Source: Sulfurospirillum sp. (GTDB lineage Bacteria > Campylobacterota > Campylobacteria > Campylobacterales > Sulfurospirillaceae). From it: a stretch of 48,134 bases of DNA. Shown piece by piece: positions 4,437 through 30,651 of this stretch. The translations under genes and the position numbers were made by a program. The DNA is taken from NCBI GenBank assembly GCA_026987955.1, contig JALSME010000077.1, forward strand, positions 1 through 48,134, read 5' to 3'. Within the stretch, counting starts at the first letter, position 1. Each line of letters starts with the position of its first letter. The notes under the pieces were generated by a model that did no database searches, was not told the origin of the DNA, and saw only the letters and a program-made list of their open reading frames with translations.

Positions 4437-6752
4437 ATGGATGATATACAAGAAATTTTGGAAGATTTTTTGGTCGAAGCGTTCGAACTTGTAGAACAGC
4501 TTGACCAAGATTTAGTAGAACTAGATACTAGACCAGAAGATTTAGAACTTTTAAATAGCATATTTAGAGTTGCACATACTATTAAAGGCTCATCATCATT
4601 TTTGAGTTTTGATGTTTTAACAAAACTAACTCATCACATGGAAGATGTCTTAAACAAGGCTAGAAAAGGTGAGTTGAAGCTCAATGAAGAGATTATGGAT
4701 GTAGTCTTAGAGTCAATTGATATGATGAAAACACTTCTTCACTGTATTCGAGATAACGGAGATGACACTACAATCGGTATGGATTTAGCAGATATTATTG
4801 GCCGTCTTGAAGCGGTAAGTGAAGGTAAAGAGATACCAGAACTTAGTGAAGATATTCAAGAGAGTAGTGAAGTTGAAGAGACTCCCAAAGAAGAAGTAAA
4901 AGAAGAATCAAAAGAAGAAGAGATAAGTAGTGAAGACTACTCGGCTATGAGTGATGATGAGGTAGAGGCTGAAATTGAGCGACTTTTAAGTGAGAAAAAA
5001 GCTGAAGCTAAAAAGAAGAAGCAGGCTAAAAATGCAGCAGAGCCTGAGAAGAAGCAACCTACTAAAGCAGCACCAGTTACTAAAAAAACAACTAATGCTG
5101 CACCTCCAGCTAAAAAGCATGCTTCAACTTTAGAGCAGACAATTCGTGTTGAGGTTAGCAGACTTGATCATTTGATGAATCTTATTGGAGAGCTTGTTCT
5201 TGGTAAAAATAGACTTCTTAAGATTTATGATGATGTTGAAGAGCGTTATGAAGGAGAGAAGTTTCTAGAAGAGCTTAATCAAGTTGTTTCAGCTATATCG
5301 TTAGTAACAACAGATCTTCAAATCGCAGTTATGAAGACAAGAATGCTTCCAATTGCAAAGGTATTTAATAAGTTTCCAAGAATGGTTCGTGATTTATCCC
5401 GCGAGTTAGGAAAGGGAATTGAGCTTAAAATATCTGGAGAAGATACAGAGTTAGATAAGTCAATTGTAGAAGAGATTGGTGATCCGCTTGTTCATATTAT
5501 TAGAAATTCATGTGACCACGGTATAGAAGATGGGGATACTAGGGAACAAAGAGGCAAAAACAGAACTGGACTTATTGAGCTTAAGGCATATAACGAGGGC
5601 AATTCTATTGTTATTGAGATTACAGATGATGGAAATGGATTAGATGCTGATATGCTTAGAGTAAAGTGTATAGAAAAGGGACTTATAAGCGAGAGAGAAG
5701 CAGATGCTATGGGCGATAAAGAGGCATTTGCACTTATATTTAAACCAGGATTCTCTACAGCAGAAAAACTTACAAATGTTAGTGGCCGTGGCGTTGGAAT
5801 GGATGTTGTTAAGACAAATATAGAAAAACTCAATGGTATTATTGATATTGATAGTGAGATTGGTAAGGGAACTGTTATTAAGATGAAAATCCCTCTTACT
5901 TTGGCTATTATTCAAGCACTATTAGTTGGTGCCCAAGAGGAGTACTATGCTATACCACTTGCATCTGTTTCAGAGACTGTAAGAATATCGCTTGATGAGA
6001 TATATACAGTAGAGGGAAGAAATGTGCTTAGGCTAAGAGATGAAGTTCTTTCTTTAGTAAGGCTATCAGATATATTTGGAGTAAAGCAAGTTTATGAAGC
6101 AGGTGAACATACCTATGTTGTTGTAATAGGTCTTGCTGAATCTAAGTTAGGATTGATAGTAGACACACTTGTAGGGCAAGAAGAGACAGTTATTAAGTCT
6201 ATGGGCGATTATCTTCAAGGTATTAATGGGATTGCAGGAGCAACTATTCGTGGTGATGGTGGGGTAACTCTTATTGTTGATATTGCATCTTTGATGGATA
6301 TGGCAAAGGGTTTAAAGGTAAACATTCGTGAGAGTATGCAGTCACAAAATAAAGTTAAAACAAAACCAGAAGATTATACCGTTTTGATAGTAGATGATAG
6401 CAAGATGGATAGAACTATAATGAAAAAATCCATTGATCCAATTGGAATCAAAATCATTGAAGCATCAAATGGTCAAGAGGCACTAAATACTTTGAAAAGC
6501 GGAGAGCATGATATTGATATTATGTTAATTGATATAGAGATGCCACGAATGGATGGTTATACACTCGCAAGTGAGATTAGAAAATACTCTAGATACAAAA
6601 ACTTACCGCTTATAGCAGTAACATCTAGAACCTCAAAAGCTGATAGATTAAGAGGTGTTGAGTCTGGAATGACAGAGTATATAACTAAGCCTTATTCGCC
6701 AGAGTACCTAGAGAATGTGGTACGAAAAAATACGAAACTAATAGCGGAGTAA
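4437..6752 (+). CDS. cheA: Chemotaxis histidine kinase CheA with C-terminal receiver (CheAY)
   Basis: Central kinase of chemotaxis. Domains in order: HPt with phospho-acceptor His47 (VAHTIKGSSSF), a long acidic then Lys/Ala/Pro-rich linker, the dimerisation helices, an HATPase domain (HIIRNSCDHGIE, then a GRGVGMDV glycine box), a CheW-like regulatory domain, and a receiver with LIDIEMPRMDG and a TKPY lysine. The attached receiver is typical of Campylobacterota. I chose the ATG at 4437 because AAGGTGAG sits just upstream at a suitable distance. A GTG at 4428, two bases after cheV, would add three residues. cheW follows after four bases. No cheY, cheB or cheR lies in this window. Confidence 0.95.
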   Translation: MDDIQEILEDFLVEAFELVEQLDQDLVELDTRPEDLELLNSIFRVAHTIKGSSSFLSFDVLTKLTHHMEDVLNKARKGELKLNEEIMDVVLESIDMMKTLLHCIRDNGDDTTIGMDLADIIGRLEAVSEGKEIPELSEDIQESSEVEETPKEEVKEESKEEEISSEDYSAMSDDEVEAEIERLLSEKKAEAKKKKQAKNAAEPEKKQPTKAAPVTKKTTNAAPPAKKHASTLEQTIRVEVSRLDHLMNLIGELVLGKNRLLKIYDDVEERYEGEKFLEELNQVVSAISLVTTDLQIAVMKTRMLPIAKVFNKFPRMVRDLSRELGKGIELKISGEDTELDKSIVEEIGDPLVHIIRNSCDHGIEDGDTREQRGKNRTGLIELKAYNEGNSIVIEITDDGNGLDADMLRVKCIEKGLISEREADAMGDKEAFALIFKPGFSTAEKLTNVSGRGVGMDVVKTNIEKLNGIIDIDSEIGKGTVIKMKIPLTLAIIQALLVGAQEEYYAIPLASVSETVRISLDEIYTVEGRNVLRLRDEVLSLVRLSDIFGVKQVYEAGEHTYVVVIGLAESKLGLIVDTLVGQEETVIKSMGDYLQGINGIAGATIRGDGGVTLIVDIASLMDMAKGLKVNIRESMQSQNKVKTKPEDYTVLIVDDSKMDRTIMKKSIDPIGIKIIEASNGQEALNTLKSGEHDIDIMLIDIEMPRMDGYTLASEIRKYSRYKNLPLIAVTSRTSKADRLRGVESGMTEYITKPYSPEYLENVVRKNTKLIAE

Positions 6753-27464: not shown

Positions 27465-28469
27465 TTGTACGCAGCACTTAGATCTATAGGTAGTTATGTT
27501 CCCAAAAATATATTGACAAATCATGATTTAGAAAAAATGGTAGATACTACCGATGAGTGGATTGTTAAAAGAACAGGTATAAAAGAGCGTAGAATTGCTG
27601 ATACAGATGAAGTTACTAGTGATCTAGGTTATAAAGCAGCCCTTCAAGCAATAGAGCGTTCAGGTATAAAAACATCTGATATAGATATGGTTGTTTGTGC
27701 AACTCTTAGCCCAGACTACCTTACAATGCCATCAACTGCTGCAATGATTTCACAAAAACTTGGCATAAAAAATGTAATGGCATTTGATATAAGCGCAGCT
27801 TGTACAGGATTTGTATATCTTATGAGTCTAGCTAAAGCTTTTATAGAGTCTGGAACTAAGAAAAATATACTTATAATTGGTGCAGAAAAAATTAGTAGTA
27901 TTATAGATTATGAAGACCGCTCAACTTGCATACTTTTTGGAGATGGAGCAGGAGCAGCAGTTATATGTGCAACAGAAGATAAAAATGAAGCCATAGTAGA
28001 TGTACTTGCAAGTGCAGATGGAAACTTTGGCGAACTTCTCATAACTCCTGGTTGTGGTTCGGTCAATCCAATCCGAGAGGATAATCTTGACCAAAGACTG
28101 CAGTATATGAAGATGGCAGGCAATGAAGTTTTTAAAGTTGCTGTTAAGACTTTAACCAAAGATGTTGTTGATATACTGAAAAAAAACAGTATTGAAGCAC
28201 ATGATATTGATATGTTTATCCCTCATCAAGCAAACTATAGAATCATCGAGGCAGTTAGATCTAAACTTGACTTTCCACTTGAAAAGTGTGCAATGACAGT
28301 AGCCAAATATGGAAATACATCCTCGGCCTCAATCCCAATGGCGATGAATGACCTGTATGAAGAGGGAAAAATCAAGCATGGAGATTTGATGCTACTTGAT
28401 GCTTTTGGAGGAGGCTTCACTTGGGGAAGTGCCTTAGTAAGATTTGCAGGAAAAAATATAACTAACTAA
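27465..28469 (+). CDS. fabH: 3-oxoacyl-ACP synthase III FabH
   Basis: Starts fatty acid chains by condensing acetyl-CoA with malonyl-ACP. The catalytic triad is visible: C113 (DISAACTGF), H254 (FIPHQANYR) and N284 ([11 protein letters not shown]). Length 334. The start is TTG at 27465, because [15 protein letters not shown] is the normal N-terminus and the spacing to AAAGGA (27452-27457) is right. The leader also contains GGATCACCTC, identical to the end of 16S rRNA. The MITE-like element begins six bases after the stop codon. Confidence 0.94.
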
Positions 28470-28474
28470 ACTAT

Positions 28475-28638
28475 TATACTCATCCTAAAACAAACTAATA
28501 CATACTGATACTACTCTTTTTCTCACTATCTTCGTTAGATAACCTTTACAATAGCTAAGGCTATGCTAAAGAACATCTGCCTCAATAGTAAAAAAATAGT
28601 AGCACCATTATGTAACAGTTTGATTTAGGATGAGTATA
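28475..28638. mobile_element. 164-bp full-length hairpin, MITE-like element
   Basis: Terminal inverted repeats of 22 bp (28475-28496 and 28617-28638) match at 21 positions, with ends TATACTCATCC/GGATGAGTATA. The pairing continues inward with roughly three-quarters identity to a 4-base loop at 28556-28559, so the whole unit folds as one stem of about 80 bp. It has no coding capacity. This is the shape of a non-autonomous miniature transposable element; the TA-rich edges would fit TA-targeted insertion. No parent transposase is in the window. It may also end fabH transcription. Confidence 0.65.
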
Positions 28639-28659: not shown

Positions 28660-28672
28660 GGGGGGGTATAAT
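28660..28672 (+). promoter_or_regulatory. Chemoreceptor promoter with G7 tract against the -10 box
   Basis: Seven G residues (28660-28666) directly abut TATAAT (28667-28672), 30 bases upstream of the receptor ATG. Long G runs are rare in this AT-rich sequence and are mutable by slipped-strand pairing. Length change here would alter the promoter spacer. Confidence 0.6.
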
Positions 28673-28701: not shown

Positions 28702-30651
28702 ATGTTAAAAACAATAAAAGCGAAATTTACAGTTTCGTTTGTGATAATTGCAGTCGTTGTTGCGATTTTGGTTGGTGTCGTAATCAACGGTATAGAAAAG
28801 TCTACAAGTGGTTTTGCTAGCTACAGAGAGATGGCAAAAGACACTGTTTTGGCAAGCGGAGTACAGGCAGATATGCTTATGCTTAGAATGAATGTTAAAG
28901 AATATTTAAAAACAAACTCGACTAAAGATATAGATGAATTTAACACTTATTACGATAAAACGATGAAGTTTATTGATAAGGCAAAAGTTGAAATACAAAA
29001 ACCAGATAGAGCAAAAAAAGTCAAAATAATTAATGAACAACTAATACTGTATAAAAAAGAATTTCAAAAAGTAGTAGAGTTTTATAAAAAAAGAAATAAA
29101 ATTCTAAAAGAAAACTTAGATGTCAATGGTAAAAAAATAGAACAACTTTTGACATCAGTGATGAATAGTGCAAACAATGATGGAGATACTAAATCTGCAT
29201 TAGATGCTGCAAAGGGTGTAAGAGTATTATTGTTGGCAAGACTCTATACCGCAAAATTTTTGATTTCAAATTCTAAAAGTGACTTAGATAGAGTTAAAAA
29301 AGAGTTTGATAATCTAAGTAAAAATTTAACTATCACTAGAGATAATTTAGAAAACACAAAAAGAAGATCTCAGTTAAGGCAAGCTATTAATATAATAGAT
29401 ACTTATAAAAATGGAGTATTCCAGATAAGCACAATAATAAAATCAAGAAATGATATTATCAATAACAGACTAAATATGACAGGTCCATATATAGCAAAGC
29501 TTGCTGAAGAGGTAAAATTATCAGTTAAAAAGGAGCAAGACACAATAGGATTTAGTGTAAAAGAGAAAAATAATGAAGTTAAAAAAATAGTACTATTTGT
29601 GGGTATAGGTGCAATTTTATTTATTATTTTCTTGAGTATATTTATGGTTAAAAATATTTTAATACAACCACTTTCTATGCTAGAAAAAATAACAAGAGAT
29701 TTGTCTAAAGGAGATGGAGACTTAACTAAAAGATTAAAAGTTGTTGGGACAGATGAAATATCATTAATATCAAGCTATATAAATGCATTTATTGAGAAAG
29801 TTCAAACAACAGTAAGAGAGGCAAAACTAAGTAGTGCTGAAAATAGCTCAATTGCTGAAGAGTTATCACAAACTTCACTTGCAATAGGTCAAAAAGCAGA
29901 AGAAGAATCAACTATAGTCCAAGGAGCAGCACAAAAAGGAAAAGAGCTTCAAGATGTCTTGAATGGCTCAATCGCAGAGGCAAAAGAAACAAAAGAGGAG
30001 ATTGTAACTACAGGTAAAAAGCTAGAACTTGCAAAAACGAAGATAGCATCTCTTTCAAAAGGTGTTCATGAGAGTTCAGTTGCAGAAGTAGAGATGGCGA
30101 GTAAACTAGAACAGCTTAGCACAGATGCAGAGCAAGTCAAAGGAGTTCTTACAGTTATAGCCGACATTGCAGATCAGACTAACCTTTTGGCACTAAATGC
30201 TGCTATAGAAGCTGCGAGAGCAGGAGAGCATGGACGAGGTTTTGCTGTTGTGGCAGATGAAGTTAGACAACTAGCAGAGAGAACTCAAAAATCTCTAGCA
30301 GAAATCAATGCAACCATAAGTGTTATAGTCCAATCAATCTCAAACACAACAGAGCAGATAACACAAAATGCAAAAAAAGCGACTATATTAGCAGATACTT
30401 CAACTGAAGTAGAGCATGAGATAGATCAAAGTGTAGATAATATGCAAAGTGCTATAGCTGATATAGAAGATATTATAAATGGGTATGTGCAAAATGCAGA
30501 TTCGGCTAATGTGATTATAGAAGAGATTGAAAGCATAAATGAGCTTTCAAGTGATAATGCAAGAAGTGTAGAAGAGATTGCATCAGCAGCTGATCATATG
30601 TCACAGATGGCAGCAAAACTTTCAAATTTGTTGGAGCAGTATAAGGCGTAG
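28702..30651 (+). CDS. Methyl-accepting chemotaxis protein with long helical (HBM-like) sensor
   Basis: Chemoreceptor, 649 residues. Membrane helix about 10-30; a periplasmic region of about 260 residues predicted to be nearly all helix and rich in Lys, Asn and Glu, resembling the helical bimodular (HBM) sensor class; second helix about 294-316; HAMP about 316-370; signalling tip [20 protein letters not shown]. The tip is nearly the same as in the other receptor at 22958-24940, while the sensor parts are unrelated. No C-terminal CheR pentapeptide. HBM receptors often sense organic acids; the ligand here is not known. Expression is probably from the G-tract promoter. Confidence 0.9.

Follow-up and report, generated by a model that had tools for sequence, protein, structure and literature searches.

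A hairpin beside fabH in Sulfurospirillum sp. as a probable relic of a gene-less, TA-inserting mobile family with a conserved fold

The hairpin downstream of fabH

The window, i.e. the whole stretch of 48,134 nucleotides analysed here, carries a hairpin of 164 bp at 28475-28638, and the coordinates given for it by a sequence-only reading proved exact. As that reading held, the hairpin has no ORF; its flanks are fabH, which ends at 28469 and leaves the element to begin 5 bp past the stop codon, and a gene for a methyl-accepting chemotaxis protein (MCP), which starts at 28702. Folding end to end yielded -54.3 kcal/mol compared with a mean of -21.6 for shuffled sequences (z -10.3), and none of 200 shuffles equalled it. 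The inverted match of 21 of 22 terminal bases was reproduced, and over a longer span of the termini 29 of 34 bases match. A property beyond the sequence-only reading was the difference between the strands, with -79.0 kcal/mol for the minus and -52.5 kcal/mol for the plus strand. The minus strand is far more stable, since wherever one strand forms a G.T pair its complement has an A.C mismatch.

The window copy consists of a terminal stem and lobe A, while the mini-hairpin and lobe B of full copies are gone (Table 1). It is an old and degraded relic that lost lobe B through deletion, and it is probably no longer of consequence to the adjacent genes. A run of seven G lies immediately 5' of a TATAAT, 35 bp upstream of the MCP start (28660-28672), and is possibly a slippage-prone, phase-variable promoter tract.

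Table 1. Parts of the window copy (positions in the window)
Feature	Position	Strand	Basis
Entire element, a subfamily-a derivative with one lobe; lobe A runs 5' to 3' along the minus strand	28475..28638	-	
Terminal inverted repeat, end once next to lobe B (TATACTCATCCTAAAACAAACT...)	28475..28508	+	
Terminal inverted repeat, A end (TATACTCATCCTAAATCAAACT...)	28605..28638	-	
Lobe A hairpin	28509..28604	-	alignment to full copies and match of model R1 on the minus strand
Lobe A internal-loop motif GAGGCA, conserved	28578..28583	-	
Lobe A facing motif TAACGAAG, conserved	28530..28537	-	
Approximate site at which about 108 bp, the mini-hairpin plus lobe B, are missing	28502..28512	-	alignment with copy C58
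TA, left copy of presumed target duplication	28475..28476	.	analogy with empty sites of other copies
TA, right copy of presumed target duplication	28637..28638	.	analogy with empty sites of other copies

Copies, empty sites and deletion derivatives

More than 12 related copies are present in the same genome (G000, 143 contigs). Ten near-complete copies of 235 to 273 bp match a 273-bp type, to which the window copy is 82% identical across 126 bp. At seven other insertion sites the orthologous sequences of congeners lack the element, with the two flanks meeting at approximately one TA. The fabH site lacks the element in the three congeners with readable downstream sequence (G004, G003 and G002). 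Here the MCP gene (28702-30651) is located between fabH and a MoxR-like AAA gene; it is absent in G004 and G002, and G003 has a different MCP-like gene in this interval. Because G004 and G002 are also devoid of the MCP gene, no exact empty site can be read for the window copy, and its TA duplication is presumed by analogy with the other copies.

The finding named beforehand as pointing away from a miniature inverted-repeat transposable element (MITE) was a single-copy sequence conserved at this position. The sequence found is multi-copy in the genome and absent at fabH in congeners, and this absence ruled out a conserved single-copy RNA at fabH. The element is short, has terminal inverted repeats and occurs in multiple copies, seven of which have TA duplications with empty sites; no transposase ORF was seen inside it or adjoining the terminal repeats examined. 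Thus the term MITE-like is borne out by copy number, by the TA-duplicated empty sites of other copies and by the absence beside fabH in congeners, yet it is an incomplete reading: the fold is conserved across species, and therefore posing the question as MITE versus structured RNA was too restrictive.

Deletion derivatives are common and comprise palindromes of the terminal repeats only (58-60 bp), scars of 21-22 bp and single-lobe forms of 161-170 bp; the single-lobe form recurs as a 165-bp copy in genome G271. The single-lobe and the terminal-repeat-only forms fit a deletion between palindromic arms. Perfect or near-perfect palindromes of 21-22 bp, TAGACTTCTTGCAAGAAGTCTA, in L264 (about 4984-5005) and L266 (about 5019-5040) were probably left by deletion of elements of the type that has GACTTCTTGC ends. 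In G271 the terminal repeat TAGACTTCTTGCA had 73 matches, many of them at contig ends, which we read as a recent burst that broke up the assembly.

Architecture and covariation of full copies

A full copy of about 272 bp folds into a four-way junction in which a 34-bp stem of terminal repeats encloses lobe A of about 97 nt and lobe B of about 99 nt with a mini-hairpin between them; the mini-hairpin often reads CCC-TTCG-GGG. This architecture is common to subfamilies a (ends TATACCCATCC), b (TATAGCCATCC) and c (TATTGCCATCC). Double compensatory changes were observed in 50 of 91 pairs of a first alignment. When 53 copies were aligned independently with MAFFT, compensatory changes were seen at 97 of the 100 predicted pairs; these are not 97 independent events because related copies were counted. 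Lobe A of the 53 copies kept the motifs GGCA..GCAGGACTAGCC..AGCTAATTCAAG..TAACG and lobe B the motifs GGCAATCTGC..TTTGAATTA..TAGTCC..CACATCTCACC; the unpaired motifs of the element are conserved. The folded shape is kept while the sequence is not, which suggests that the fold does something in its own right.

Strand asymmetry of the lobes

Strand preference was compared in the 77 copies that have three helices. The top strand gave the more stable lobe A in 76 of them, the bottom strand gave the more stable lobe B in all 77, and the terminal stem was close to balance (47 vs 30). Base pairing in the 53-copy alignment was in line with this for lobe A, where 184 cells with G.T stood against 16 with A.C and the bias was seen in each of the 53 sequences. 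The corresponding numbers were 64 and 69 for the terminal stem and 57 and 66 for lobe B, with a single near-invariant pair contributing 42 of the 57 G.T cells. The optimised strand of either lobe is the one that enters the element, 5' to 3', from the end next to that lobe. The direction of the asymmetry was unchanged under DNA energy parameters, and therefore RNA is not favoured over single-stranded DNA. The predicted stabilities argue for lobes that work as folded single strands, on opposite strands, be it in RNA or in DNA.

Occurrence in Campylobacterales

With a covariance model, 93 of the 399 Campylobacterales genomes, from 27 of the 87 genera sampled, had a match over the full length. Up to four candidates were scored per genome, so that copy numbers are to be read as 'at least'. 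All 82 full copies used measure 264-275 bp. Core clades cut across host families, and one a-type copy was detected in a MAG of Sulfurimonas. As a negative control, viral contigs totalling about 270 kb were without a match to the model, and no meaningful match was obtained in the plasmids and phages searched. Matches to Rfam 15 stayed under the gathering score, which leaves no known RNA family. No prior description of the element was met in Rfam or the papers searched, and a search of the literature on Campylobacterota repeats turned up nothing relevant. Full-length copies were found in roughly one in four of the sampled species, and the model is ready for use in annotation of Campylobacterales genomes.

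Placement near genes

Copies are intergenic as a rule, and 13 of 82 overlapped a long ORF in a simple, uncurated ORF calling. Of the 16 copies of subfamily a, 15 have an end that lies -1 to +5 nt before a start codon (one of them GTG), compared with a background of 0.6% of the TA positions in the window. Lobe B faces the start codon in all of these that have lobes. A purine run resembling a Shine-Dalgarno sequence is often left on the far side of the element, and the terminal repeat itself contains AGGA. Two copies depart from this pattern, namely the one remaining of the 16 (C30) and the window copy, which is older; in a truncated copy on C132 the A end sits at a start codon. This placement is limited to subfamily a, with varying distances to genes elsewhere.

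Ends and the search for a parent

The outer bases fall into the classes TTACCGCACC, GACTTCTTGC, CCATCC, GGGCACCTC, AAGTACC and AACCTGA, and TA was present at most element junctions across the classes as judged by eye. On the tree of the cores the end classes need 11 changes where the minimum is 6, and several switches are forced by well-supported branches. Thus we concluded that ends were exchanged or converged.

The expectation that the ends should identify a parent transposase was disappointed. No autonomous element with the same ends was found among terminal repeats with up to three mismatches in the own genome and in sampled stretches of relatives. A parent of the IS630/Tc1 type was discarded, as DDE_3 transposases number zero in the own genome and occur in 2-3 of 44 genomes of the family. 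On viral contigs the end patterns gave nothing or chance matches, save GGGCACCTCTAAAAACCC. This end class also bounds an IS5-like insertion sequence (DDE_Tnp_1/DUF772) on viral contig L271 (6626-7921), a contig that has neither a match to the element model nor the lobes. Because the flanks of this insertion sequence show no TA duplication, it is a lead only.

Discussion

We consider it probable on balance that the hairpin in the window is the degraded remnant, with one lobe, of a member of a non-autonomous mobile family that ranges across the order, inserts at TA and was kept as a folded single strand, with looping-out in RNA as the preferred mechanism. Presumably DDE transposases acting in trans would move the element, which has no genes of its own, and would need no more than roughly its outer 14 bp for recognition. 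Such a short recognition would explain why different end classes sit on one core. Mobilisation in trans is an assumption, as no transposase with these ends was found. The core fold would be kept because the element acts as a folded single strand. We propose that in RNA the element would fold into one closed structure, so that an insertion would be looped out of the transcript and do little harm to neighbouring genes. In subfamily a the element parts the Shine-Dalgarno sequence from the start codon, and a base-paired element would reunite them; the terminal repeat, moreover, has an AGGA of its own. The 34-bp stem could instead block initiation. In our judgement transposition in trans by DDE enzymes together with loss of harm by folding out is the best fit, where folding out is what we infer. 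The window copy is no illustration of the mechanism because it lies 63 bp before the downstream gene and in reversed orientation.

A more far-reaching proposal, which we put forward tentatively and think doubtful as yet, is that the selected trait of the element is the folded single strand itself, i.e. two inverted, strand-specific hairpins carried between transposon ends that render insertions tolerable and in one subfamily loop out of the gap between Shine-Dalgarno sequence and start. If true, a tiny element without genes would have retained a complex four-way fold throughout an order while swapping its ends. Selection of a MITE for its shape as RNA or single-stranded DNA would become directly testable, and so would the question of how an insertion that separates the ribosome binding site from its start codon is survived.

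The main rival is palindrome correction without function. The element would then be an ordinary MITE, its lobes foldback remnants of a lost insertion sequence and its pairing upheld by template switching, a known route to paired changes. The abundance of terminal-repeat-only palindromes, short scars and single-lobe forms agrees with such a history. Yet identical unpaired motifs and a near-constant length in many bacterial families are hard to reconcile with it, template switching ought to remove internal mismatches, and it gives no cause for opposite asymmetries of the lobes beside an unbiased stem, so that we regard this explanation as rather unlikely. The persistence of the asymmetry with DNA energies and the optimisation of each lobe on the strand that enters the element from the side of that lobe would also suit a fold that works as single-stranded DNA in transposition, e.g. 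as a folded strand whose lobes would be putative binding sites for a transposase or recombinase that recognises it. We give this a low probability, since long terminal repeats, discrete end classes and the TA duplication resemble double-strand DDE transposition, and no candidate enzyme was found.

A local role as transcription terminator or RNase III site for fabH had been suggested by the sequence-only reading. The position 5 bp past the fabH stop and the long stem that RNA would form speak for it, and the predicted hairpin RNA is a possible substrate of RNase III. On the other hand, no terminator-like site was predicted, the GC-rich stem with a following T run of an intrinsic terminator being absent, the congeners have no element beside fabH, and the more stable strand is antisense to fabH. 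The terminator is thus unsupported, and a role of either kind for fabH is very improbable.

With MITEs in general the family preferred here shares small size, lack of ORFs, terminal inverted repeats, target duplication and many copies. It differs in an intricate, order-wide fold with compensatory changes and in end classes that were switched on one core, with no same-ended parent found. The IS5 family has in common with it the end class of the L271 insertion sequence, which differs by its flanks without TA duplication on a contig without a model match. Dispersed palindromes between genes are also typical of REPs and REPINs; these were rejected, since the definition in PMC3733652, a palindrome of 20-40 bp with a terminal GTAG or CGTC tag, does not apply to the element. 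Correia elements (CREE) of Neisseria duplicate a TA target. Like the present family, they are small and mobile, end in inverted repeats, duplicate their target, have a directional core and often lie 5' of genes; as RNA they are substrates of RNase III (PMC2649163). In contrast to our 264-275 bp, two lobes and hosts in Campylobacterales, CREE are mostly 104-108 or 153-157 bp long and reported only from Neisseria (PMC2649163), and by length classes and host an assignment to Correia elements was rejected. As to position relative to promoters, several b-type insertions in L137, L140 and L144 directly follow TATAA, as if placed in or by -10 boxes.
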